From Acholeplasmataceae bacterium (GTDB lineage: Bacteria > Bacillota_I > Bacilli_A > Acholeplasmatales > Acholeplasmataceae): a DNA stretch of 32,200 bases. The stretch lies in the NCBI GenBank assembly GCA_007692425.1, contig RECG01000028.1:1-32200 (forward strand), read 5' to 3'. The number at the start of each line of letters is the position of its first letter. The first letter of the stretch is position 1. Below, piece by piece: positions 188-31,590 of the stretch. Below the pieces are notes generated by a model. That model saw nothing but the letters and a program-made list of their open reading frames with translations, had not been told where the DNA came from and did no database searches. The translations under genes were made by a program, and so were the position numbers.

Positions 188-1503
188 GATGTTGCCTCCT
201 CATAATAACCGAGATGACGCCGATGCGCCTCGACGAGCTCATCAAAGACTTTTTCCGCCACCGTCACAGAAGTGGTCAAAGGATGAATCTTGAGCGCCAG
301 CAGGGCTTTGTCAAGATCACGTTCCTCGACGGCGTCCACCACCAGTTCCTCATAAGCCTTCATGTGCTGGACCAGTCCCCGGATGGCAACCGGCAGACGA
401 CCGATATGCACCGGCATCGGACCGTCCTTCGTGATGCGGGCCGTAATCTCCACCGCACAGCCGTCAGGCAGGTCGGTGATGTGTCCTTGGTTCATCGTGT
501 TGACCACCTGGTAGTCACGCTTGTCCCGCACGATCGAGGTGATGATGTTGCAGGCGACATCACTATAATAGGCACCGCCGCGTTGTTCAAGTTCCTTGGG
601 TTTGACCGCCAAGGCCGGATCAGCATATTGTTTGAACAAGGCTTCCTCGATGGTCTTGACGACTTCCGCCCGGGTCTTGCCCTGTCGGCATTGTTCAAGG
701 TTCGAGGCCAGCATCTCCTCTTGAAAATAGTAGTATTTGTGATAGGGGTTCGGATAAGCCCCGAGTTGTCTGATGAAGGTGGGCGAGAAAGCAAGCGGAT
801 CGATGTTTGCCATCGTCTGCTGCTTCGCACCGATCTTATCGATGACCGCCGGCAGACAATTCTTGTTTTGATGGTAAAGATGCAAAACATAAGACATGTG
901 GTTGAGTCCGGCAACCTCGGAAACGAGTTCTTTCGGTTTGACCTTCAAGACCTCGCTGAAATGATGCAGTTGATGAATCGGCACATTGCACAATCCGATG
1001 TAGCGATGCCAATCAGTCAGTCTGAAAACCGCTTCGCTCACGACACCGGCCGGATTGGTGAAATTGATCAACCAGGCCGAAGGACAACACACTTTCATGT
1101 CATCGATGATATCCAAGATGACAGGAATGGTACGTAGTGCCTTGAAAAGACCGCCGGCACCGTTCGTCTCTTGTCCCAACATGCCGTGACTGGCCGGAAT
1201 CCGTTCATCTAGAATGCGAGCTTCCATCAAACCGGCCCTGAACTGGGTGCAGACAAAATCAGCCCCTCGCAAGGCGGTTTTTCGATCTAGTGTCGCACTG
1301 ATCGTGATGGGAACACCAGCCTTTGCCACCATTCTTTCAGCCAATGCGGCGATGATATGGAGTTTGTCCCTGCCTTCTTCGATGTCGACCAGACGGATGC
1401 TTTTGACAGGCACTTCCGTGTAGCGCTTGATGAACCCTTCGATCAATTCAGGCGTGTAGGAAGAACCCCCGCCGATGACGACGATGTCAATCGCTTTTTT
1501 CAT
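184..1503 (-). CDS. GH4 family 6-phospho-glycosidase
   Basis: This 439-residue protein has the usual length and layout of glycoside hydrolase family 4. Residues 8-19 (VVIGGGSSYTPE) form the N-terminal NAD-binding loop, GQET occurs at 110-113, and the metal-binding signature CNVP starts at Cys172. A second metal ligand is expected at His202 in GLNH. Family members of this type (LicH, CelF/ChbF) cleave 6-phospho-beta-glucosides such as cellobiose-6-P or chitobiose-6-P by an NAD+- and Mn2+-dependent redox mechanism in the cytoplasm. The gene overlaps the upstream kinase by 17 bases and the downstream hydrolase by 4, so it sits inside a tight operon. No PTS gene is visible in the window. The phosphorylated substrate may instead come from the neighbouring kinase, which is an inference. 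The exact sugar cannot be read from the sequence. Confidence 0.88.
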   Translation of the reverse strand: MKKAIDIVVIGGGSSYTPELIEGFIKRYTEVPVKSIRLVDIEEGRDKLHIIAALAERMVAKAGVPITISATLDRKTALRGADFVCTQFRAGLMEARILDERIPASHGMLGQETNGAGGLFKALRTIPVILDIIDDMKVCCPSAWLINFTNPAGVVSEAVFRLTDWHRYIGLCNVPIHQLHHFSEVLKVKPKELVSEVAGLNHMSYVLHLYHQNKNCLPAVIDKIGAKQQTMANIDPLAFSPTFIRQLGAYPNPYHKYYYFQEEMLASNLEQCRQGKTRAEVVKTIEEALFKQYADPALAVKPKELEQRGGAYYSDVACNIITSIVRDKRDYQVVNTMNQGHITDLPDGCAVEITARITKDGPMPVHIGRLPVAIRGLVQHMKAYEELVVDAVEERDLDKALLALKIHPLTTSVTVAEKVFDELVEAHRRHLGYYEEATS

Positions 1504-3813: not shown

Positions 3814-4620
3814 TCAGGCGATGGTCGGCTGACCCTTGTCAGCCATCTTGGCCCCATCACGATTGAAACGGTAAACCAAAATCCCGATCGTGACGAGAAT
3901 CAAGCTGATCCATTGCGAGGTCGACAACAGCCAGAGACCACCACGGATCTCGTCACCTCTTAAAAACTCATTGAAAAACCGGAAGGTGCCATAAGCGACC
4001 AGGTAAAGGGAAACAAAGATGTAAGGGCGATGACGTTTCCGGTATTTGAAAAACAGAAAGAGCATGGTCAGAAACAAGGTGATATTGAACAAGGCTTCAT
4101 ACAACTGGGTGGGGTGCACCCGCACACCGGCATAAGGATAAGAAGCCTCGAACGGAAAGACGACACCGAAGATGCTTTCAGTCGGTTTGCCATGACAACA
4201 ACCTGCCAGGAAGCAGCCGATACGGCCGCACCCATGACCAAGTGGCAACGCCACGATGAACAAATTCACATACTTCAACGGATCAAGCCGATATCGGCGG
4301 ATATAAAAGAAAGCGATACCGATGGCACCGATCAACCCGCCATAAAAGACGAGACCGCCACTGAACACAACCGGCAAAATCATCGAGGGATCCTGGATCA
4401 TCGTGCCGATATGTGTCAAGACAAAGAGAATACGTGCGCCCAACAGGGCGCCGATGATGATGAAAGCTGACAAAAACAAAATCTCTTTCGGGGGTAAATG
4501 ATAAAGCGGATGACGCTTGTTGATGATCAACACCGCAGCAATCGCGATCAAGAAACCGATGACCATCAAGATATGGTAAGTCTGAATGCGTAAATCACCT
4601 AGTTCCAAGTACGGATACAT
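3814..4620 (-). CDS. lgt: prolipoprotein diacylglyceryl transferase
   Basis: Lgt moves a diacylglyceryl group from phosphatidylglycerol to the lipobox cysteine of prelipoproteins in the cytoplasmic membrane. The 268-residue protein is strongly hydrophobic with about seven membrane segments. It carries the Lgt signature around residues 129-144 (HGCGRIGCFLAGCCHG, with His129 and Arg133). The cysteine-rich GCFLAGCCHG version replaces the more usual GNFINGE, and I recall this form from other Bacillota. Later segments such as HPTQLYEAL (near 168-176) and RFFNEFLRGDE (near 213-223) also match the family. An AGGAGG-like site lies 10 bases before the ATG. Its substrates in this window would include the lipoproteins at 7627 and 20384. 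It has its own promoter and terminator and is not part of the anmK operon. Confidence 0.93.
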   Translation of the reverse strand: MYPYLELGDLRIQTYHILMVIGFLIAIAAVLIINKRHPLYHLPPKEILFLSAFIIIGALLGARILFVLTHIGTMIQDPSMILPVVFSGGLVFYGGLIGAIGIAFFYIRRYRLDPLKYVNLFIVALPLGHGCGRIGCFLAGCCHGKPTESIFGVVFPFEASYPYAGVRVHPTQLYEALFNITLFLTMLFLFFKYRKRHRPYIFVSLYLVAYGTFRFFNEFLRGDEIRGGLWLLSTSQWISLILVTIGILVYRFNRDGAKMADKGQPTIA

Positions 4621-20295: not shown

Positions 20296-20350
20296 TTTAC
20301 AAAGTCTTTACCTCTTGTTGCTTTTTTCATTACGCGTCATCCGTTACAAT
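20296..20350 (+). promoter_or_regulatory. candidate Pho box and pst promoter
   Basis: Four hexamers recur exactly every 11 bases: TTTACA (20296), TTTACC (20307), TTGCTT (20318) and ATTACG (20329). The -10 TACAAT is at 20345-20350. Direct repeats of TT(A/C/T)ACA-like hexamers with about 11-bp period are the PhoP-binding arrangement known in Bacillus. The third and fourth copies are degenerate. The -35 position is poor (TTTTTT), which fits a promoter that needs an activator. Confidence 0.5.
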
Positions 20351-20383
20351 GAGCGTGGACAAAACAAAGAAGGAGATTTTAAA

Positions 20384-22210
20384 ATGTTAAAGAAAATAGG
20401 TTTGATCATGTTGTTGATCATGATGTTCACGCTTGTCGCCTGTGTAGGCGGCGATGATGCAAATGGTGACGATTTTGACCGTAACGCCACCATCAAGGTT
20501 TACACCCGTGATACCTCCTCCGGTACCCGGGACGGCTTCATGAACGGTATCGGCTTTCCCGAAGCACGTAATAATGATGCCGTCCTGGCACCGGGCTTTG
20601 TCGTGGCCGGCAATCTTGAACAGGTCGGTGCGGTTCAAAACGATCCATACGCCATTGGTTATGTCTCGCTTTCAACCTTGAACACAGCCTTGTTTAACGG
20701 TCTGTCGTATGATACGGTCGAACCGACAGAAGCGAATGTGTTGAGCGGAGATTACAAGTTGTCGCGCCGTTTCAACTATATGTTACGCGATGATTACAGT
20801 GTCTATGGTGCTGATGCAGACGCGTACGAAGCCATCTCACTGGCCTTTGTCGCCTACATGAATTCGACCGAAGGTCTTGCCCAGATCGCCCAGGCAGGCG
20901 GCATTGTCGATGTCAACGCCGGTCAGCCTTGGGAAGACATCCGGGTCGAGCATCCGGTTTGCCAGCTTGACAATTCCGGCCTGACCTTCAAAATCGGTGG
21001 CTCGGACTCGGTTGAAAGGATTGCGACCACGATCTCACCTGATTTCTCCGCCAAGTGCGGTAACGTCGTGCCCGAACACAACCACACCGGTTCAAGCAAC
21101 GCCTTCCGTGGTACGAACGGTGATGCCAGCGGGATCGGCGACGCGCTTTCCATCATGGTCGGCTTCTCCTCACGCGAATTCACACCAAGCGAATTGTCAC
21201 CGAACCGGATCACCGGTATCGTTGCGATTGACGCGATCGTGGCAATCACTCACAAGGACAATCCCTTGAGAAGTGTCTCCGGTTATGATCTCAGACAGAT
21301 ATACAGTGGCGCGATCACCCGTTGGGGCGACCTGGTCTCCAGACAGGATTTCAATGGCGCCATCAAGGTTTATACCCGTGACACCTCTTCAGGCACCCGT
21401 GACGGATTCTTCAATGGCATTGGCTTCTCCGCCGCCCGCAACAACGACGCCGTTCTGGCCCCAGGCTTTATCGTAGCCGGTAATCTTGAACAGGTCGGTG
21501 CGGTCCAAAATGATCCATATGCCATCGGTTATGTCTCACTTTCAACTTTGAATACAGCCTTGTTCAAAGGTCTTTACTTCGAAGGTGTCGCACCAACTGA
21601 AGAAAACGTCTTAAGCGGTGCTTACCAGCTCTCCCGTCGTTTCAATTACATGCTTCGTGACGACTACAGTGTCTATGGGGCGGATGCCGCCGCATACGAA
21701 GCCATCTCGCTCGCTTTCGTGGCCTATATGAATTCAACCGAAGGGCTTGCCCAGATCGCCCAGGCGGGCGGCATCGTTGATTTGACATCCGGCCAACCTT
21801 GGGAAACTGTCCGTCTTGATCATCCGATCTGCCAGCTGGACAACTCAAGTCTGACCTTCAAGATCGGCGGCTCGGACTCGGTTGAAAAGATCGCGACCAC
21901 GATCTCACCTGATTTTTCCGCCAAGTGCGGTAACGTCGTGCCCGAACACAACCACACCGGTTCGAGCAACGCTTTCCGTGGCACGAACGGTGATGCCAGT
22001 GGCATTGGCGACGCGCTTTCGATCATGGTCGGTTTCTCCTCACGCGAATTCACACCAAGCGAACTCACGCCTGACCGGATCACCGGTGTTGTCGCGATTG
22101 ACGCGATTGTCGCCATCGTCCACAAGGACAATCCTTACATCAGTGTGACTGCTTATGTCCTGACCCGCATCTACAAAGGTGAAGTCACCAATTGGAGCGA
22201 CTTGTCCTAA
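20384..22210 (+). CDS. pstS: phosphate-binding lipoprotein PstS, double-length with permuted tandem halves
   Basis: PstS is the extracellular phosphate receptor of the PstSCAB importer. The lipobox is LVAC with Cys20. The mature protein is 608 residues in precursor length, about twice the usual PstS. It consists of two units of about 285 residues, starting at residues 36 and 326, that are about 85% identical. Each unit begins with the half that is normally C-terminal (IKVYTRDTSSGTRDGF, later DPYAIGYVSLSTL). It ends with the half that is normally N-terminal (KIGGSDSVE, HTGSSNAF, FSSREFTPSEL, IDAIVAI.HKDNP). The order is therefore C-N-C-N. Only residues about 200-488 form a canonical N-then-C PstS. 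Both phosphate-contact motifs, GSDSV and SSGTR, occur twice. I chose the ATG at 20384 because AGAAGGAG precedes it and it gives a clean signal peptide. Confidence 0.93.
   Translation: MLKKIGLIMLLIMMFTLVACVGGDDANGDDFDRNATIKVYTRDTSSGTRDGFMNGIGFPEARNNDAVLAPGFVVAGNLEQVGAVQNDPYAIGYVSLSTLNTALFNGLSYDTVEPTEANVLSGDYKLSRRFNYMLRDDYSVYGADADAYEAISLAFVAYMNSTEGLAQIAQAGGIVDVNAGQPWEDIRVEHPVCQLDNSGLTFKIGGSDSVERIATTISPDFSAKCGNVVPEHNHTGSSNAFRGTNGDASGIGDALSIMVGFSSREFTPSELSPNRITGIVAIDAIVAITHKDNPLRSVSGYDLRQIYSGAITRWGDLVSRQDFNGAIKVYTRDTSSGTRDGFFNGIGFSAARNNDAVLAPGFIVAGNLEQVGAVQNDPYAIGYVSLSTLNTALFKGLYFEGVAPTEENVLSGAYQLSRRFNYMLRDDYSVYGADAAAYEAISLAFVAYMNSTEGLAQIAQAGGIVDLTSGQPWETVRLDHPICQLDNSSLTFKIGGSDSVEKIATTISPDFSAKCGNVVPEHNHTGSSNAFRGTNGDASGIGDALSIMVGFSSREFTPSELTPDRITGVVAIDAIVAIVHKDNPYISVTAYVLTRIYKGEVTNWSDLS
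20489..22207 (+). repeat. tandem duplication inside pstS (two units of about 870 bases)
   Basis: Unit 1 runs from 20489 to 21358 and unit 2 from 21359 to 22207, in the same frame. The first halves differ at about one base in five over the 165 bases I compared, mostly at third codon positions. The second halves are more than nine-tenths identical over their first 220 bases (20981 onward against 21851 onward). The many silent differences show an old duplication kept by selection, not a recent copy. Confidence 0.9.
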
Positions 22211-22255: not shown

Positions 22256-22289
22256 GTGGAAACACTAGTCATCTGATTAGTGTTTTCAC
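22256..22289 (+). promoter_or_regulatory. stable intercistronic hairpin between pstS and pstC
   Basis: GTGGAAACACTA (22256-22267) pairs with TAGTGTTTTCAC (22278-22289) and the stem continues three more pairs to a 4-base loop. No T-run follows. It is more likely a stability or processing element, or a weak attenuator, keeping receptor mRNA above permease mRNA as is common in pst operons. Confidence 0.6.
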
Positions 22290-22309
22290 TGTCAAGAAAG
22301 GATAGGCCC

Positions 22310-23293
22310 ATGAACAGCATCCGAACGTATGTCACCCCGGCCAACATTCGACATAAAAACCGCACCGACAAGCTATTCAAAGCCGCCTTTTTGTCGAGTT
22401 CGCTGTTATCGGCATCGTTCATTGTCATGATTGTGCTGTTCATCGCTTTCAAAGGCGTCAGTCCGTTCATCCGTCAGTACGAAGGATATAATAACTTGTT
22501 CGGAACCGTGATTTTGCCACCGGTCAATCCGATCCGTTTTCTGACAGGCATGCAATGGTTGGACGGACCTCTCCTCAATACATCAGGTTACGCAATCGGC
22601 TATGCAATCGTCAATACGCTGATCGCGGTTTTCCTTGCCATCATGCTGGTAGTGCCGATTGCAGTGCTGACAGCCCTTTTTATCGCCAAGGTCGCTCCCA
22701 AGCCGGTGTCGAAAGTGATGCGGACGGTTGTCGAATTGTTGGCGGCCATCCCATCGATTGTCTATGGTGTCTTCGGCCTGGGCATCATCACGAAAATCAC
22801 CATCGCCACCGCCGGTGTCTTCAATGTCCAGACAGCAGCAGGCTTGTCGCTGATGAGCACGGTGCTGGTCCTTGCCATCATGATCCTGCCGACGATTACC
22901 GCGATTTCAGAAACATCCATCCGTTCGGTCGATTCCACCATCATCGAGGGCTCGCTCGCCCTGGGCGCATCCGAGATGCAAACGTACTACAAGGTCGTGC
23001 TCACATCAGCCAAAAGCGGCATATTTGCCGGAATCATCCTTGGTGTGGGACGCGCCCTTGGCGAGGCCACCGCGGTTGCCATGGTCTCAGGCAATGCCTT
23101 TTCAGGTATCCAGACCAGTCTCTTCGGCACGACCGCGACCCTGACATCACGCATGCTGCTTGGTCTCAAGGATACGACCGGACTGGATTATGATATCCGC
23201 TTTTCGGTCGGCTTGGTCTTGATGGCTGTCATCTTGATCACCAATTTCACCTTGCGGGCAATCATGCGAAAGGTAGGGAATCTCGATGCGTAA
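22310..23293 (+). CDS. pstC: phosphate ABC transporter permease PstC
   Basis: One of the two membrane subunits of the high-affinity phosphate importer. The 327-residue protein has a hydrophobic helix at about 25-48, an external loop with NPIRFLTGMQW, and five further helices. The PstC motifs VELLAAIPSIVYGVFGLG and the coupling loop EGSLALGASEMQTYYKVVLTSA are clear, followed by GIILGVGRALGEATAVAMVSGN, which includes the conserved RALGE. The ATG at 22310 is preceded by AAAGGA. An upstream in-frame ATG at 22280 lies in the hairpin region and is rejected. The gene overlaps pstA by 8 bases. Confidence 0.95.
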   Translation: MNSIRTYVTPANIRHKNRTDKLFKAAFLSSSLLSASFIVMIVLFIAFKGVSPFIRQYEGYNNLFGTVILPPVNPIRFLTGMQWLDGPLLNTSGYAIGYAIVNTLIAVFLAIMLVVPIAVLTALFIAKVAPKPVSKVMRTVVELLAAIPSIVYGVFGLGIITKITIATAGVFNVQTAAGLSLMSTVLVLAIMILPTITAISETSIRSVDSTIIEGSLALGASEMQTYYKVVLTSAKSGIFAGIILGVGRALGEATAVAMVSGNAFSGIQTSLFGTTATLTSRMLLGLKDTTGLDYDIRFSVGLVLMAVILITNFTLRAIMRKVGNLDA

Positions 23294-24494
23294 GAGACGA
23301 AGCATCTGGCGTGAACGCATCGCCAAAGGATGGGTCTATGCCCTGGGCAGCATCGGCATCTTCATCCTTGGTGCCATCATCTATTATGTCACGACGACCG
23401 GCTTGCATCTGGTCTCGTGGGATATGATTACAGGCGATTCAAGGTCGCTGAACACCGATGTGTCGGTCTTAGTGGAACCTGGTTATTACGAGCCATCATC
23501 ATTGGATGAAGATTGGTATTACTCATATGCCTGGGGCATCGCCATCAAGGACGATGTCGACCGTGAAGGCAATCCGGTTGTCCGTGTCGTTTACATCCAT
23601 CCGGATTCACCGTTGCTGGCCGCCAATGACAACAACAACCGTGATGAGGAAGGCAATCCGATGATTGTCGCAGTCAGGACCGGAACGGTCATCCAGAAAG
23701 TCTTTTTCGAAGGTGGCAAATTATCCCTCATGCGCTCCGGCGCTGAGTCGATGCATGACAGTTTTGAAAATGCCGTCCAGATCAGGGAAATGACCGTCCA
23801 GATCCGAGGCGGAGGCATCAGGGGATCGTTGATCACGACCTTGTGGATGATCGCCCTGACTTTGATGATGGCCATTCCGATCGGTGTCTCGACCGCGGTC
23901 TATCTCAATGAGTTCGCCAAGAAAAACAAAATCACCAACACCATCCGTACCATGGTTGACCTCTTGACCGGTGTGCCCTCCATCATTTATGGCATGCTCG
24001 GTGCCGCGGTCTTCATCCCCCTTCTGAACAACACGGTCAACACCTCGGGAGGATCCGTGCTCTCAGGCGCACTCACCCTGACCGTCATCTTGTTGCCGGT
24101 CATCATCAAAAACACGGAAGAAGCGCTCAAGGTCATCAGTGACGATCTCAGAAAAGGATCACTTGCACTCGGTGCGAACCAAACCCAGACCTTGTTCAAA
24201 GTCGTGCTCCCTAATGCCATTCCGGGGGTGTTGACCGGTGTGTTGCTGGGCATCGGACGCATCATCGGTGAATCAGCGGCCCTCATCTTCGCCGTCGGTG
24301 CCGCCATCAAGGACCAGATCATCCTGACCGAAAGGTCGACCACGCTGGCGGTCCATATTTGGACCGTGATGGGCGGCGAGAAACCCAATTTCGAACTGGC
24401 TGCCGCCATTTCCATCATCATTCTCATCGTTGTCTTTATCATCAACTTCATCGTCAAGCTCATTGCTAGAAATCTCAACAAGGTATGGATTTAG
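23286..24494 (+). CDS. pstA: phosphate ABC transporter permease PstA with extra extracytoplasmic domain
   Basis: The second Pst membrane subunit has 402 residues, against about 280-300 in the usual family. After the first membrane helix (about 16-38) comes an inserted region at about residues 50-177, which should lie outside the membrane. Within it, residues 83-175 look PDZ-like: WGIAIKDD, VVRVVYIHPDSPL, then VIQKVFFEGG and MTVQIRGGG. The standard PstA core follows, with LTGVPSIIYGMLGAAVF, KGSLALGANQTQTLFKVVLPNA and GIGRIIGESAALIFAVGAA. The gene starts 8 bases inside pstC. Its stop overlaps the AGGAGG of pstB, so expression of the three is tightly linked. The PDZ assignment is by eye from the pattern and is not certain. 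Confidence 0.93.
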   Translation: MRKRRSIWRERIAKGWVYALGSIGIFILGAIIYYVTTTGLHLVSWDMITGDSRSLNTDVSVLVEPGYYEPSSLDEDWYYSYAWGIAIKDDVDREGNPVVRVVYIHPDSPLLAANDNNNRDEEGNPMIVAVRTGTVIQKVFFEGGKLSLMRSGAESMHDSFENAVQIREMTVQIRGGGIRGSLITTLWMIALTLMMAIPIGVSTAVYLNEFAKKNKITNTIRTMVDLLTGVPSIIYGMLGAAVFIPLLNNTVNTSGGSVLSGALTLTVILLPVIIKNTEEALKVISDDLRKGSLALGANQTQTLFKVVLPNAIPGVLTGVLLGIGRIIGESAALIFAVGAAIKDQIILTERSTTLAVHIWTVMGGEKPNFELAAAISIIILIVVFIINFIVKLIARNLNKVWI

Positions 24495-24503
24495 GAGGTC
24501 ATG

Positions 24504-25271
24504 ATGAACACAAAAAACAACGCCATCTTCAAAATGGATGATATCAACCTGCATTACGGCTCGTTTCAAGCCATCAAGAACATCAATATGTGCATCGAAC
24601 GCAACAAGGTGACTGCCTTCATCGGACCTTCGGGCTGTGGCAAGTCTACCTTTTTACGGATCATGAACCGCATGAATGACCTGATTGACGATTGTAAGAT
24701 CAACGGGAAAGTCTGTTTCGAAGGCAAGGACGCCTACGCACCCGATTATGATGTCATCGAACTCAGGACAAAGGTCGGCATGGTCTTTCAAAAACCGAAT
24801 CCGTTTCCAATGAGCATTTATGACAATGTGGCCTATGGTCCCCGTTGTCAAGGCGTCAAAAATAAGACAGTGCTCGACCCTCTGGTCGAAAACGCCCTGC
24901 GTCAAGCCGCCCTTTGGGAAGAGGTCAAAGACCGGCTTAAAAGTTCGGCCATGGCACTCAGCGGCGGTCAGCAACAACGCCTCTGCATCGCCCGTACGAT
25001 CGCCATGGAACCGGAAGTCATCCTCATGGATGAACCTACGTCATCGCTCGATCCGATCGCCACGCAGAAGATTGAAGACCTGATTGTCGAACTCAAACGT
25101 GATTTCACGATCGTCATTGTCACCCACAACATGCAACAAGCCGCCCGTGTCTCTGACATGACCGCCTTTTTCCTGCTTGGCGAACTGGTGGAATTCGGCG
25201 ACACGCGTCTCATGTTTTCCAATCCGAACAATAAAAAGACCGAGGAATATGTGACTGGACGGTTCGGATGA
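24504..25271 (+). CDS. pstB: phosphate ABC transporter ATPase PstB
   Basis: The ATPase of the Pst importer, 255 residues, the normal length. Walker A is GPSGCGKST at residues 41-49. The PstB-specific [22 protein letters not shown] is the Q-loop region, the signature is LSGGQQQR, Walker B is [13 protein letters not shown] and the switch is [13 protein letters not shown]. Two ATGs lie side by side at 24501 and 24504. The second is better spaced (5 bases) from AGGAGG at 24493-24498. It ends the transporter part of the operon, 102 bases before phoU. Confidence 0.97.
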
Positions 25272-25373: not shown

Positions 25374-26036
25374 ATGACATTAAGACAAGCGCTTGAACAA
25401 GCGGTTGAAGCACTCAAGACGGCAGTCGTCGCCATGGCTGATATGGCGCTGGCAAATCTTAGAGAAGGTCTCAAGGCATTCAAGACTAACGACCTGGAAC
25501 TGGCACGAAGGGTCATCCAACTCGATGACGAGGTCGACCGCATGGAAGAAGAAATCGCCCGTGATGCATTACGCATCATCTGGCGTGAACAACCCTTGGC
25601 CGGTGATCTGCGCCTGGTGACTGGCATTTTGAAACTGATCACCGATCTGGAACGCATCGGCGATCATGCCAGCGACATCGCCGAGATGACCTTGCATCTT
25701 GAGGACTTGCATAATCCCCGCCTGATGCCGATCACCACCCGCATGGCGGAAGGTGTCGAGGCGATGGTTTTAAAAAGCATCCAGGCACTCATCAAAGTCG
25801 ATCAGACCATCGCCCAATCAGTGATTGATGCCGATGACGAGATCGATCAATTATTCCAAAAGGCGGTCAACAAGATCGCACTTGAATTGAAACAGGACAA
25901 GATTGATCCCAACGAGGCCATCTATGTCCTGATGGTCGCCAAGTATTTCGAACGTGTCGGCGACCATGCCGTCAACATTGCCGAGTGGGTCGTGTTCATG
26001 GTGACGGGCGAGCATAAGCAGACCCCGTTGTTTTAA
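25374..26036 (+). CDS. phoU: phosphate signalling protein PhoU
   Basis: PhoU is a cytoplasmic helical protein that links the state of the Pst transporter to the PhoR kinase and represses the regulon when phosphate is ample. The 220-residue protein shows the two related three-helix bundles of the family. Each carries the metal-binding motif: ERIGDHASDIAE near residues 93-104 and ERVGDHAVNIAEW near 190-202. Both copies of E-R-x-G-D-H are intact. The gene follows pstB and precedes the two-component genes, 11 bases before phoP. Confidence 0.95.
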   Translation: MTLRQALEQAVEALKTAVVAMADMALANLREGLKAFKTNDLELARRVIQLDDEVDRMEEEIARDALRIIWREQPLAGDLRLVTGILKLITDLERIGDHASDIAEMTLHLEDLHNPRLMPITTRMAEGVEAMVLKSIQALIKVDQTIAQSVIDADDEIDQLFQKAVNKIALELKQDKIDPNEAIYVLMVAKYFERVGDHAVNIAEWVVFMVTGEHKQTPLF

Positions 26037-26047
26037 GGAGGATTCAG

Positions 26048-26710
26048 ATGCCACTGATTTATTTTGTCGAAGATGACCAGGCGATCGCCTATATCATTGA
26101 AAAGACCATCGCCAATGCGAACATGACAGGATTGGCTTTTTCCACGGGCGAAGCCTTTTTGGAAACATTCAAGAAAACGAGGCCGGACATGGTCTTGCTT
26201 GACGTCATGCTTCCCGACATGTCCGGCATCGACCTTCTTAAAATCATCAGACGTCGCGATCAAGACATTCCCATCATGATGATTTCTGCTTTGCAAAACG
26301 AGATGGACAAGGTCATTGCCCTGGATGCCGGAGCTGATGACTACATGACGAAACCCTTTGGTGTCCTCGAGCTGACGTCCCGCATTCAAACCAAATTACG
26401 CAAACAAAAAGATGAAAACGTTCATGAACTCGACAACATCATCCTTGACGACCGTAAACACCAATTGCTTGTCGATGGTCGTGAGGTCTACCTGACCAAC
26501 AAGGAGTACGCCATTCTTAGACTGTTGCTCAAACAACAAGGCACCGTGGTGTCAAAAGAAGACATCTTCAAGCATGTCTGGGAAACGGATTTCATCGGCG
26601 AGACCCGGACCCTTGACATGCATATCAAATCACTGAGGGAGAAACTGAACACGCACGCAGCCCATCCGGTCATCAAGACCATCCGCGGTGTCGGTTATCA
26701 AATCGGATGA
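26048..26710 (+). CDS. phoP: OmpR-family response regulator, PhoP/PhoB-like
   Basis: This regulator is expected to bind Pho boxes, probably including the repeats at 20296-20334. The 220-residue protein has a receiver domain with acidic pair Asp9-Asp10, phosphoacceptor Asp52 (LLDVMLPDMSG), Ser80 and Lys102. A winged-helix DNA-binding domain follows from about residue 125 (LTNKEYAILRLLL, GETRTLDMHIKSLREKL, IKTIRGVGYQI). AAGGAGG lies 6 bases before the ATG. The stop overlaps phoR as ATGA. The name rests on position in the pst operon; the sequence alone would only say OmpR family. Confidence 0.9.
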   Translation: MPLIYFVEDDQAIAYIIEKTIANANMTGLAFSTGEAFLETFKKTRPDMVLLDVMLPDMSGIDLLKIIRRRDQDIPIMMISALQNEMDKVIALDAGADDYMTKPFGVLELTSRIQTKLRKQKDENVHELDNIILDDRKHQLLVDGREVYLTNKEYAILRLLLKQQGTVVSKEDIFKHVWETDFIGETRTLDMHIKSLREKLNTHAAHPVIKTIRGVGYQIG

Positions 26711-28398
26711 AAAAAGCACTGATCCGCAACAACATCATGCTGGTGATCCTGGCGTTTCTGCTTTTTCTGGCGGTCGCCCTTTTCGTCTTGTATCGCTTTC
26801 AATGGAAACAACAAGACACCTTCATGCGCATGATCATGGCGGAAGTCGAGCTGGCTTACAACAACCACGATGATGATGCCGCGGTGTTCGTTTTGGATTA
26901 TGCCGGTGAACATGACCGTCGTATCACGGTGCTGGATCCCCAGTTCAGGGTGATTGCGGACAGTCATGATGACCGAGTGGGCACAGACAAGAGCAGTCGT
27001 CCCGAACTGGTTGAACCAGACACCGTCAAAGCCCGTTACTCCACCACCGTCAATCTGACCATGCTTTACATCGCCAGAGAAATGGAAGATGGCAATTATT
27101 TGCGGATCAGCGTCCCTGCAGCCACCCAGACGGCCGCCTACAATCAATTGATTTTATGGTTCTCCTTGACCGGGCTGGCCTTTGTCTTGATTTATGCAGG
27201 CGGGTTGTTCAAACTCAATCAAAACCTGCTTGCCCCATGGGAACAAGCCAAAAAAGGCATGAAGGCCCTCAAAGAGGGACGATACCAGGTGATGACCACG
27301 TTTCATCCTTATCCCGAAATCAATGAGATCATCCATGAAATGAACGACATCAGTCTTGACATCGCGCGTCATGTCCGTAATGTCGAACGCTATCAGGAAC
27401 AACTCAGCCGCGTCTTGAACGAAATCAAGCAAGCCGTCATGCTCTTCAATCATCAAAACATCCTGCTTTATGCCAACAAGGATGCGCGGACACTCTTTGA
27501 CCTGGACGATGAGGCCATCGGCAACCCCGCTTATCACGGCATCCGTTCGACGGAGATCAAGCAGGCGGTCACCGATGTCAACCAAAACCGCAAGGAAAGC
27601 GCCTTTGATTATAAGAAAGACGGCAGCGTTTATGAAATCCGCGCTTTTGCCGTTGCCGACAAAGGATCCGCGCATGAGGATGCCACCGTCTTGTTGTTGT
27701 GTCGTGATGTCACCCAGTCAAGGGCGGTCGAGCAAATGAAACGCGATTTCTTCTCGCATGCCTCGCATGAACTGAAATCACCGCTTACCGCCATCAGGGG
27801 ATATGCTGAATTGATTGAACACAAACTGGTCAAACAAGAAGAAGTCGAAGACACAGCCAGGCAAATCGTCAGACAGAGTGAAACGATGACCACCTTGGTC
27901 GAAGACATGCTCATGCTCTCGAGACTTGAGAACATCAAGGAAACCACCTATACGAGACAACGGCTTGACCATCTGCTCGAAGAGGTGGTCATCACGCTCA
28001 AACCGATATCAGACCATAAGAACATGACACTATCCATCCAAGCCTCAGACATCGAGATGATGTGTGATCCGTTGGATTTACAGAAGCTTTTTAAAAACCT
28101 GATTGAAAATGCCATTAAATACAGCCCGGCTGACACGTTGATTGACATTCAACTTCATTTGGACAACGATCACATCATCTTCAAAGTCGCTGATCAGGGT
28201 CTTGGCATCGAACCCGTCCATCAGCAGCGTGTGTTCGAGCGATTCTATCGCGTTGACAAGGGACGCAAGGAAGGTGGAACCGGTCTTGGACTCGCCATTG
28301 TGAAACATGTCGTTCTCAAGTATCAAGGTAAAATCGACCTCCAATCCAAGGTTAATGAAGGAACCACCGTCACCATCAAAATGAAAAAAAACATGTAA
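26707..28398 (+). CDS. phoR: PhoR-like sensor histidine kinase
   Basis: A 563-residue membrane kinase paired with the upstream regulator. Helices at about residues 9-30 and 147-170 flank an external domain of about 115 residues. After a HAMP-like stretch comes a PAS-like domain (about 230-335, EIKQAVMLFNHQNILLYANKDA). The dimerisation domain has phosphoacceptor His354 in HASHELKSPL. The ATPase shows N box NLIENAIKYSP, G1 DQGLGI, F box FERFYRVD and G2 GGTGLGLAIVKH. TM-external-TM-HAMP-PAS-kinase is the B. subtilis PhoR layout, unlike E. coli PhoR, which lacks the large external domain. Translation is coupled to phoP by ATGA. No terminator is seen directly after the stop; the next one lies in the nrd leader. 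Confidence 0.9.
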   Translation: MKKALIRNNIMLVILAFLLFLAVALFVLYRFQWKQQDTFMRMIMAEVELAYNNHDDDAAVFVLDYAGEHDRRITVLDPQFRVIADSHDDRVGTDKSSRPELVEPDTVKARYSTTVNLTMLYIAREMEDGNYLRISVPAATQTAAYNQLILWFSLTGLAFVLIYAGGLFKLNQNLLAPWEQAKKGMKALKEGRYQVMTTFHPYPEINEIIHEMNDISLDIARHVRNVERYQEQLSRVLNEIKQAVMLFNHQNILLYANKDARTLFDLDDEAIGNPAYHGIRSTEIKQAVTDVNQNRKESAFDYKKDGSVYEIRAFAVADKGSAHEDATVLLLCRDVTQSRAVEQMKRDFFSHASHELKSPLTAIRGYAELIEHKLVKQEEVEDTARQIVRQSETMTTLVEDMLMLSRLENIKETTYTRQRLDHLLEEVVITLKPISDHKNMTLSIQASDIEMMCDPLDLQKLFKNLIENAIKYSPADTLIDIQLHLDNDHIIFKVADQGLGIEPVHQQRVFERFYRVDKGRKEGGTGLGLAIVKHVVLKYQGKIDLQSKVNEGTTVTIKMKKNM

Positions 28399-28602: not shown

Positions 28603-28607
28603 CATGA
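28503..28607 (+). CDS. 34-codon leader ORF overlapping the nrdI start
   Basis: An ATG at 28503 follows AGGGG by 8 bases and opens a 34-residue frame ending in TGA at 28605-28607. That stop overlaps the nrdI ATG at 28604 as ATGA. The peptide starts MIVISHTSVLLPSLVPLLK and is mostly hydrophobic with a basic end. The frame runs straight through the terminator hairpin at 28556-28576, so a translating ribosome would prevent termination. It may be a regulatory leader peptide rather than a functional protein. It may also be chance, since short frames are common; the ribosome site and exact junction argue against that. Confidence 0.4.
   Translation: MIVISHTSVLLPSLVPLLKHTPYAFYFSFKGVRS
28556..28580 (+). 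terminator. intrinsic terminator inside the nrd leader
   Basis: A perfect 9-bp stem AAAGCATAC/GTATGCTTT (28556-28564 with 28568-28576) with a GCC loop is followed by TTATTTTT. It lies after the nrd promoter and before nrdI, so it must be overcome for the operon to be expressed. It would also stop transcripts reading through from phoR. Confidence 0.8.
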
Positions 28608-29014
28608 TCGTCGTTTATGACAGTCTGACCGGCCAAGGGAAGCGGTTCGCCGACAAACTAGGCTATCCGGTCGAAGACATCCGGACATTTGAAACGAAGG
28701 CAGACACCCCGCTCTTGCTTATCACGAGATCCTTCAATTTTGGTGAAGTCACCAGGGAGGCTGCCGCCTTTCTGGATTGCTATCATCACCTTGTCATCGG
28801 TGTCGCTGTCACAGGAAATCGGAACTGGGGGGCGAATTTCGGCGCGGCCGGAGACAAGATCGCCGTGACATACGGCATCCCGCTTGTCTTGAAATTCGAA
28901 GCTTCAGGCATGCCTGAGGACGTCACAAAGGTCAAGCAATGGCTTGATCGCCATCACCATTCCAACACCCATCAAAGGAGCGACCATCATGGCCATGTTC
29001 AAAACCACGGATGA
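28604..29014 (+). CDS. nrdI: ribonucleotide reductase flavodoxin NrdI
   Basis: NrdI is a small flavodoxin that supplies an oxidant to assemble the Mn(III)2-tyrosyl radical cofactor of class Ib NrdF. The 136-residue protein has YDSLTGQGKRFADKLG as the FMN phosphate loop, then RSFNFGEV and the diagnostic GVAVTGNRNWGANFGAAGDKIA. FEASGMPEDVTKVKQWL matches the family C-terminus. AAAGGAG is 7 bases before the ATG. The last 20 or so residues go beyond the family core, are rich in histidine (eight His), and are encoded partly over the ribosome site and first codons of nrdD, a 26-base overlap. NrdF is expected downstream of the window. Confidence 0.9.
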   Translation: MIVVYDSLTGQGKRFADKLGYPVEDIRTFETKADTPLLLITRSFNFGEVTREAAAFLDCYHHLVIGVAVTGNRNWGANFGAAGDKIAVTYGIPLVLKFEASGMPEDVTKVKQWLDRHHHSNTHQRSDHHGHVQNHG

Positions 29015-30926
29015 ACTGATCAACAAGTTCATTGGTAACGAAGAAGATAAACGATCGGATTATTTGAAACGGGAAAACAGCAATTTTGTCTTTTCCCTGC
29101 CACTGTTAAGAAAAAACATCTCCAACAAGGCGGAAGAGGAGTATTTGATGAAATACATCCTGCCCCGTCGTCTGGTGGAGCTTTATGACGAGGGCGTGAT
29201 CTACATCCATGACAAACAGCTGTCCTCATACTGTCAGTCGGTCTCCTGCAAGGATATCGCGACCAAGGGTATTCCCAGTATCGCCAAAAACATGCTTCAA
29301 TCCGAAGCGGCCTCATCCTTGCCGACGGTGGTCCGCCACTTCAGCAACGTCGTGACGCTGATGAGCCAGCAGGTGTCCGGTGCCGTCATGCTTTCACAGA
29401 TGACGACCATTTTGGCGTCTTATCTTTATGAAGAAGAGAAGAACCGCCAGTTTTACACCGACCGCACCTTGACCAAACTGATGTATCAACTGATCTATGA
29501 ACTCAACCTGCCGCTTCGTTCCGGGTCCGAATCAGCCTTCTCGAACTGCACGCTCGAGTTTGGCAAGCCTTCTGAAGAAATCAAGGATGAATATGTCGTC
29601 ATCGGCGGCGAAGGCATGGACTATACTTATTCGGAAATTCCGTCCGAGTATTTCGACCGCATCAACATGGCTTTCATCAACGCCATGGCCAAAGGCACCA
29701 AGGACGGCATTCCCCTGACGTTCCCGCTCATCACGGTCCAGATTGATGATGATTTTAATTATGACAATGAGGTTTTCCTGCATCTCTTGGAGAAAATGTA
29801 TCAATGGGGTGGCGTCTATTTCGAAAACTTCCGCACCCGCCCCTTCACCGATCCTTATTACACGAAAATCAACCCTTACATCAAACCCAAGGACCCTGGT
29901 GTCTCAAGAAGTTTGTGCTGCCGCCTCAATATCGACCTGAGCGTGTTGTCACGTGCTGGTGGCGGCATCTTCGGTTCATCGGTCGGCAATGTTGGCGCCA
30001 TCCAGGTTTTGAACCTTAACATGAACCGGGTCTTGATTGAGTTCGGACACGATGACGATCTGCTTAAAACCAAGATTCGTGAATATTTCGAAATCATGGA
30101 AGAAGGACATCTGGCCAAACGGGCCTGGGTCGAAGAACACAAGGAACTCTATCCCACCTTCTTTGCCTTCAATGAGAATTTGAACAACTATTTCAATGTC
30201 TTCGCGGTGACCGGCATGCACGAAGGACTCATCAACATCGGCTACAAGCAAGGCATGAATGATCCGGCCGGCAAGGTCTATGCCCATGAGCTGATGCAGT
30301 ACATGTCTTCGATCATCAACGAGTTCATCGTCCGTGACCATGTTGCCTGCGGCATCGAATATGCCCCCGCCGAAAATGCCGGCATCAAGCTGGCCAGAAG
30401 CGATGTCAAATGGGCCCGTGCCCACGGTCGTGAAATCTTTGTCCAGGGTGAAGGCGAGAGTGTCTATCTGACATCCGGATGCATGTTACCTTTCTCGGAA
30501 GAAGACTTCACCAGACAAATTGAAAACGCCTCTGAATTCCAGGGTTACGCGACCTCGGGGTCGATCCTGCATCACTTCCTGGAATCAAAAGTCCGTCCTG
30601 AAGTCTTATCCAGATACTTGCAGAACTTGTTCAAGAAACCGATCAATTACATCACCTTGACACCGACCATCACCAGCTGTCTCGACTGTGGTCAGAAGAT
30701 TGTCGCCAGCGATGCCAGGGACATCCATCATTGTCCGGTCTGCAACAGCGATGACATCGCCACCTACAGCCGCGTCATCGGTTATGTCCGCATGATCGCC
30801 CGCAAGAATATCCGTATCAACGACAAGGGTTATTACGAAGGGCAATACAATTTCTGGAGTAAGGCGAGACGCCTGGATTGGGCCCAGCGAAGACGTTTCA
30901 AGGAAGAAGACACCAATCATGATTAG
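28989..30926 (+). CDS. nrdD: anaerobic (class III) ribonucleoside-triphosphate reductase
   Basis: A glycyl-radical enzyme that reduces ribonucleotides without oxygen. The 645-residue protein lacks the N-terminal ATP-cone found in many NrdD proteins. IYIHDKQLSSYC holds the active-site cysteine region. SLCCRLNIDL and RAGGGIFGSSVGNVGAIQVLNLN match the NrdD barrel. A zinc site is formed by Cys564, Cys567, Cys582 and Cys585. The radical is expected on Gly598 in SRVIGYVRM, where the usual motif is R-V-T-G-Y. The 47-residue tail after the glycine is longer than I expect. I chose the ATG at 28989 because AAAGGAG lies 8 bases before it. It overlaps nrdI by 26 bases and nrdG by 8. Confidence 0.92.
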   Translation: MAMFKTTDELINKFIGNEEDKRSDYLKRENSNFVFSLPLLRKNISNKAEEEYLMKYILPRRLVELYDEGVIYIHDKQLSSYCQSVSCKDIATKGIPSIAKNMLQSEAASSLPTVVRHFSNVVTLMSQQVSGAVMLSQMTTILASYLYEEEKNRQFYTDRTLTKLMYQLIYELNLPLRSGSESAFSNCTLEFGKPSEEIKDEYVVIGGEGMDYTYSEIPSEYFDRINMAFINAMAKGTKDGIPLTFPLITVQIDDDFNYDNEVFLHLLEKMYQWGGVYFENFRTRPFTDPYYTKINPYIKPKDPGVSRSLCCRLNIDLSVLSRAGGGIFGSSVGNVGAIQVLNLNMNRVLIEFGHDDDLLKTKIREYFEIMEEGHLAKRAWVEEHKELYPTFFAFNENLNNYFNVFAVTGMHEGLINIGYKQGMNDPAGKVYAHELMQYMSSIINEFIVRDHVACGIEYAPAENAGIKLARSDVKWARAHGREIFVQGEGESVYLTSGCMLPFSEEDFTRQIENASEFQGYATSGSILHHFLESKVRPEVLSRYLQNLFKKPINYITLTPTITSCLDCGQKIVASDARDIHHCPVCNSDDIATYSRVIGYVRMIARKNIRINDKGYYEGQYNFWSKARRLDWAQRRRFKEEDTNHD

Positions 30927-31590
30927 GTATCTCCCCAAGCTGATGTTGACGCTTGATGAGATCAAGGACGAACCGTCCCTACTCATCCATGCGCTCACCG
31001 GCTGCATGTTCCATTGTTTCCGTTGCTTCAATTATGAAGAACTGGTTGAGAAGGTGCATGACGAGGTTTATGAAATCGACGATGTCGTCGCTTACATCCA
31101 AAAACAAGACCATCTTTTTGATAACATCATTCTAAGTGGCGGAGAGCTCATGCTCGCGCCACTTGAATCTTTAATCAGCGATCTTGGACTGATCAGGAAG
31201 ACCACCCAAAAACCGGTCATCATCTACACCACCGGACTTGAACTGGCCAAAATGAAAAACCTTCATGACCGCGGCCTGGTCGATGGTTATCACATTGATA
31301 TGAAACTGCCCTATCATCTTTTGACGGATGACGACTATGACCTGATCGAGATGACCATGGGCATCAGGCTCCGCTCGCTGGACCTGGTCAAAAGACTTGA
31401 AGAAGCGCTGGCTTTCGTGGTTGAAACCGATGCCGGCAAGAGCCAGATCCGCAGTGTCCGTTATCCTTTTTTGGACGAAACAGCCTTTGCCGAGTGCAAA
31501 TTCCATGTCGATGCACTCAACCATCGGTATAATAAGAGTACACCTTATTTCATCAATGCCTTTATTGATCCGGAAGCAACCAAAAAATAA
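30919..31590 (+). CDS. nrdG: class III ribonucleotide reductase activating enzyme (radical SAM)
   Basis: NrdG uses S-adenosylmethionine and a [4Fe-4S] cluster to create the glycyl radical on NrdD. The 223-residue protein has the radical-SAM CX3CX2C motif at Cys29, Cys33 and Cys36 (GCMFHCFRC). The SAM-binding GGE follows in ILSGGELML near residue 76. Its length and N-terminal placement of the cluster fit NrdG. The 8-base overlap with nrdD, its substrate, makes the assignment firm. The C-terminal 70 residues are less conserved with classical NrdG. The next gene, nrdE, follows after 20 bases. Confidence 0.88.
   Translation: MIRYLPKLMLTLDEIKDEPSLLIHALTGCMFHCFRCFNYEELVEKVHDEVYEIDDVVAYIQKQDHLFDNIILSGGELMLAPLESLISDLGLIRKTTQKPVIIYTTGLELAKMKNLHDRGLVDGYHIDMKLPYHLLTDDDYDLIEMTMGIRLRSLDLVKRLEEALAFVVETDAGKSQIRSVRYPFLDETAFAECKFHVDALNHRYNKSTPYFINAFIDPEATKK

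Follow-up and report, generated by a model that had tools for sequence, protein, structure and literature searches.

The pst locus

The window, i.e., the whole stretch of 32,200 nucleotides that was analysed, is an entire contig of the 1.45-Mb draft genome (29 contigs) of an Acholeplasmataceae bacterium. Its forward strand harbors a pst operon with the gene order pstS-pstC-pstA-pstB-phoU-phoB-phoR, in which a tandem pstS comes first; in relatives, pstS is likewise followed by pstC-A-B-phoU. The products of pstC (22280-23293; TIGR02138, 212 bits for a cutoff of 196), pstA (23286-24494; TIGR00974, 225 bits for 193), pstB (24501-25271; TIGR00972, 412 bits for 343), and phoU (25374-26036; TIGR02135, 192 bits for 130) all exceed the cutoffs of their models. 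The phoB-type response regulator (26048-26710) and the phoR/pnpS-type histidine kinase (26707-28398) are named after their best matches, TIGR02154 and NF046044, both of which score under the cutoff. PstA possesses ~165 residues N-terminal to the portion matched by the PstA model. Positions 28604-31590 encode an NrdI-type flavodoxin, immediately followed by the anaerobic ribonucleotide reductase gene nrdD and by an nrdG-like gene for a radical SAM protein. The usual partner of NrdI is the class Ib nrdEF.

The pstS gene encodes a 608-residue lipoprotein, from an ATG at 20384 to its stop at 22210. The TTG start called by the program at 20315 is probably wrong, and the ATG the better start, since the latter is preceded by a Shine-Dalgarno AAGGAG (20370-20375; 20370-20383 with its spacer) and opens a lipoprotein signal peptide (20384-20443, MLKKIGLIMLLIMMFTLVAC) whose last residue is the lipobox Cys20. 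The tether VGGDDANGDDFDRN (20444-20485) leads from the lipid anchor to the first unit of the protein, and relatives share an F[DN] tether like this one. An lgt-like gene is found elsewhere in the window (3814-4620). The tandem protein matches PF12849 (PBP_like_2) with 130 bits for a cutoff of 27 (2e-37), while its TIGR02136 (PstS) score of 184.4 bits falls below the curated cutoff of 206.6. The best stretch for the latter model covers residues 201-456 only, the portion in canonical order, and we read the low score as an effect of domain order, not of kinship. Several features of the PstS family are present: a PstS-type domain, adjacent pstC, pstA, and pstB, and the phosphate-site motifs of both halves.

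Two units in one chain

Half-domain profiles cover the window protein in a single frame as C[1-161] N[1-116] C[2-161] N[1-116], C and N being the halves that come last and first in canonical PstS. Unit 1 is made of C1 (20486-20977), with the phosphate loop RDTSSGTR at 20507, and N1 (20981-21334), with GGSDSV at 20996, HNHTGSS at 21077, and SSRE at 21167. A linker (21335-21358) connects it to unit 2, which comprises C2 (21359-21847), with RDTSSGTR at 21377, and N2 (21851-22204), with GGSDSV at 21866. The units (20483-21337 and 21353-22207) align in register and without gaps, at 85% protein and 80.7% DNA identity. At the protein level, RDTSSGTR (residues 42 and 332), GGSDSV (205 and 495), HNHTGSS (232 and 522), and SSRE (262 and 552) each occur once per unit. 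These phosphate-site motifs are mostly invariant among 60 homologues, and their key residues are invariant in the alignment of the family, termed A4. The C-N-C-N order, the two 85%-identical units, and the retention of the phosphate motifs, all read by the initial annotation from the letters alone, are thus borne out.

The two units differ by 91 silent and 43 residue-changing codons, and their overall Ka/Ks of 0.10 indicates strong purifying selection on both. Together with the PBP_like_2 match, this value excludes a chance ORF. Divergence is uneven along the unit, with a Ks of 1.45 in the C-halves (Ka/Ks 0.06), 0.38 in most of the N-half, and 0.9 overall, a pattern expected from patchy gene conversion. 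Residue changes are concentrated in the 30 C-terminal residues of N1 and N2 (Ka 0.37, versus 0.025 in the remaining N-half), and the same end-divergence is found in every tandem. It might betray a specialised pair, in which one unit differs in specificity or role instead of doubling the receptor. Such specialisation is unlikely, as all nameable site motifs are identical in both units, and the divergent stretch adjoins the linker and the C-terminus, distant from these motifs in sequence.

The junction between the units is informative. Measured from the W to the next strand, the linker is 12-16 residues long in all tandems, compared to 9 in the canonical structure 4q8r. It starts with the unit end (the W and a few residues) and continues with an F[DN] tether, as before single units. 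We take this composition as the mark of two complete permuted receptors fused end to end.

Permuted PstS in relatives and in solved structures

The C-N order is not unusual in PstS, being common in this part of Bacilli. Nearly all matching genomes of Acholeplasmatales carry a single C-N lipoprotein, mostly 300-350 residues long (the norm is ~310 amino acids), including Acholeplasma laidlawii, a member of the family to which the window genome belongs. In a class-level sample, ~100 of 144 matching genomes cover the C-N unit and ~35 are canonical or partial, as tallied manually from the ranges of the matches, with a permuted query that favours permuted matches.

Structural data lead to the same unit. 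The A4 profile, built from 60 units, aligns collinearly and in a single piece with the whole chain of PDB entry 4h1x (S. pneumoniae PstS2), its positions 2-278 corresponding to 11-264 of the chain (E 2e-37); the canonical 4q8r, 4gd5, and 1twy are matched as two separate pieces. Unit 1 alone, modelled by AlphaFold2 with 59 single-unit homologues, is predicted as a complete two-lobed receptor (pLDDT 95.6, pTM 0.90). The best PDB match of this model is again 4h1x (E 1.2e-20), the next one being fifteen orders behind (4e-5). On this predicted fold, a C-N unit constitutes a whole receptor in permuted form, for which a solved structure provides the precedent. A normal N-C placement of the halves, envisaged at the outset as a possible outcome of structural alignment, was not obtained: the window units are collinear with the C-N chain of 4h1x. 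The statement that no PstS of such order had been described does not hold for the C-N unit, 4h1x having been released in 2012. For the tandem, no description was found; a literature search, largely without subscription journals, returned no paper on permuted or tandem PstS.

Folding and function of the tandem

These observations favour, with a probability of roughly 0.83, a single lipid-anchored Pst receptor formed by two complete, circularly permuted PstS domains in succession, (C1N1)-linker-(C2N2). Both units would fold independently, each into a two-lobed receptor, as in single-unit relatives and PstS2. As each unit keeps the full phosphate-motif set, one lipid anchor would hold a chain binding two phosphate ions. 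Both would be passed, one after the other, to the one PstCA pore, near which the number of receptor sites would be doubled. The protein would have originated by fusion of two C-N genes, and its copies may have been kept alike since by gene conversion or unequal crossing-over. We infer the pairing within units, the two working phosphate sites, the benefit for transport, and the route of origin from these comparisons.

Among the three folding alternatives proposed initially, that of two permuted receptors is the best supported, by the C-N singles, by 4h1x, and by the unit 1 model. The depiction of a central canonical receptor flanked by orphan halves was not retained: C-N is the order of the normal single gene of relatives and of 4h1x, so that no half of the tandem is an orphan. 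Structure prediction of the monomer, suggested as a check, was successful for unit 1 and failed for the full-length chain, for which AlphaFold2 from five tandem sequences yielded a poor model (pLDDT 48.5) that is not usable and gives no pairing of the halves. For a deeper full-length model, a MAFFT local alignment placed every single-unit sequence on unit 2 only; as this would bias the pairing, unit 1 was modelled alone.

The halves could also be swapped within the chain, N1 and C2 forming a central canonical receptor while C1 closes on N2 to give a second one. The N1-C2 middle does follow the canonical PstS order, and single relatives in N-C (L150, genome G123) or c-N-C order (L028, genome G018) suggest that a core of this kind can make up an entire gene product and serve as a receptor, which goes against pairing within units. 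However, C1N1 corresponds to the ancestral single unit and should leave the Sec pore first, hence should fold before C2 exists. Furthermore, the N1-C2 linker is longer than the canonical one and contains a relic of the tether, and the prediction for unit 1 by itself is a complete receptor. Ancestry, export order, linker length, and predicted fold thus all favour pairing within units, and the swapped monomer is quite improbable. Pairing of halves between molecules, yielding dimers or chains on the membrane, is very unlikely: the near-identity of the units makes their halves interchangeable in principle, but partners within a unit should meet at a much higher effective concentration, and no sequence feature favouring oligomers was found.

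Tandems in other genomes

The search of related genomes for the same domain order, also advised at the start, revealed, besides the common C-N singles, C-N-C-N in one gene in six genomes other than that of the window: WOFB19 (L035), zrk7 (L036), G005 (L006), and three members of another family (L103, L105, and L109). The genomes of G005 and zrk7 (L036/L148, CP076021) are single contigs; one frameshift in C1, which may be genuine or a sequencing error, interrupts the tandem pstS of zrk7. Long frames in G270, G440, and G072 were also considered and turned out to be singles or a run-on ORF.

This recurrence bears on whether the window locus could result from a misjoined or collapsed repeat, which the initial annotation had named as its possible refutation. 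The 29-contig draft status of the genome leaves some room for such an artefact, and the 725-798 bp exact repeats of three related tandems make short-read copy number uncertain there. At the window locus, however, exact repeats extend over 47 bp at most, which makes a short-read collapse unlikely, and the synonymous divergence is high (Ks 0.9). With six other genomes carrying the tandem, two of them as single contigs (one with the frameshift), an assembly artefact is extremely improbable.

A tree built from individual units pairs those of the same protein as sisters in six of the seven tandems (support 97-100), single-unit proteins branching in between; the exception is zrk7, both units of which adjoin L035. 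The unit cores of L035, L103, and L105 are identical over 725-798 bp, while their last 100 bp are only 57-81% identical. Since the ends would also be alike after a recent duplication, these cores have been homogenised, and we read the sister pairs as reflecting concerted evolution as much as repeated fusion. A count of six independent changes taken from the tree was not adopted, since gene conversion would yield the same tree. An ancient duplication with the unit 1s of the window, L035, and L036 as one clade is rejected for whole units (AU p 3e-5). The ends retain another signal. Over the last 30 residues, L035 and L036 share 25 matches between their N1 and 27 between their N2, compared to 17-20 across positions; for the window, the same-position matches are 16-18 and the cross-position matches 12-15. 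This similarity by position points to an older duplication followed by gene conversion; it argues for a shared origin of the tandems of L035 and L036 and, less strongly, of that of the window. The linkers, for their part, suggest two or three tandem origins.

On the chromosome CP017948 (MO-XQ), two pstS loci ~99 kb apart (L080 and L099) exhibit the same match statistics, suggesting a recent duplication of the region.

Paired and apparently trimmed forms

Other arrangements surround the tandems. In G183 (L141, G183:C134), two separate adjacent C-N pstS genes precede pstC and pstA, the arrangement expected ahead of fusion. Within the C-N clade, L150 (G123:C44; ORF 284-1279, reverse strand) is a single PstS in N-C order. 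It is placed in the f3 tandem clade and its N-C junction keeps a tether-like AFDTSKQ, as expected from a tandem middle after trimming; on these sequence traits, L150 likely descends from a tandem by trimming. L028/L146 (G018; ORF 1402-2346 of L028, reverse strand) starts inside a C-half and displays a third order, c-N-C, with an intact pst operon. It belongs to the same genus as the tandem-bearing G005, although its grouping with G005 on the tree is not clear.

The single C-N, tandem C-N-C-N, N-C, and c-N-C forms are all found in one family and together look like stages of permutation by duplication. Tentatively, and at somewhat below even odds, Acholeplasmatales may present this process as living stages (single, concerted tandem, and trimmed), the tandem being able to fold with either pairing and to act as a functional bridge between topologies.

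Comparison with known systems

Among the closest systems are the single-unit PstS of Acholeplasmatales (e.g., A. laidlawii, L082), which share with the window protein the C-N order, the lipobox, the tether, and the operon, but possess one unit instead of two, at ~40-77% identity to a window unit. PstS2 of S. pneumoniae (SP_2084, PDB ID 4h1x) is, like a window unit, C-N permuted over its whole chain; in contrast to the window protein, it is a single unit of ~265 residues, with 22% identity to a window unit in structural alignment. Canonical PstS (4q8r/4gd5 and V. cholerae 1twy) share the halves and the phosphate motifs, but in N-C order, and match the window type only as two swapped pieces. The C-N order is already known; the novelty lies in the fusion of two units and in the set of forms that accompany it.

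Natural circular permutation of a lipid-tethered binding protein of an ABC transporter is also exemplified by Treponema MglB-2 (PMC4990184) which, unlike the window protein, is a type I sugar-binding protein and a single unit. Doubled binding domains are found in Lactococcus GlnPQ, where two substrate-binding domains (SBDs) per chain, separated by a 14-residue linker, act independently and feed one pore (PMC8025302). The window tandem likewise assembles two binding domains with a short linker, of similar length, and one pore. The SBDs of GlnPQ are, however, fused to the transmembrane domain and differ in their specificities, whereas the tandem is a separate lipoprotein of near-identical permuted units, pstC and pstA being separate genes.

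Finally, permutation by duplication predicts a functional tandem and half-trimmed intermediates, and few families show these stages in close relatives. Tandem and trimmed intermediates have been documented for DNA methyltransferases and for saposin/swaposin (PMC3320104). These proteins are unrelated to PstS, for which one bacterial order contains the single form, the tandem, and two apparently trimmed forms. With the steps lying in one order and one operon, and ligand binding and its stoichiometry being easily measured, the model becomes testable on natural proteins.
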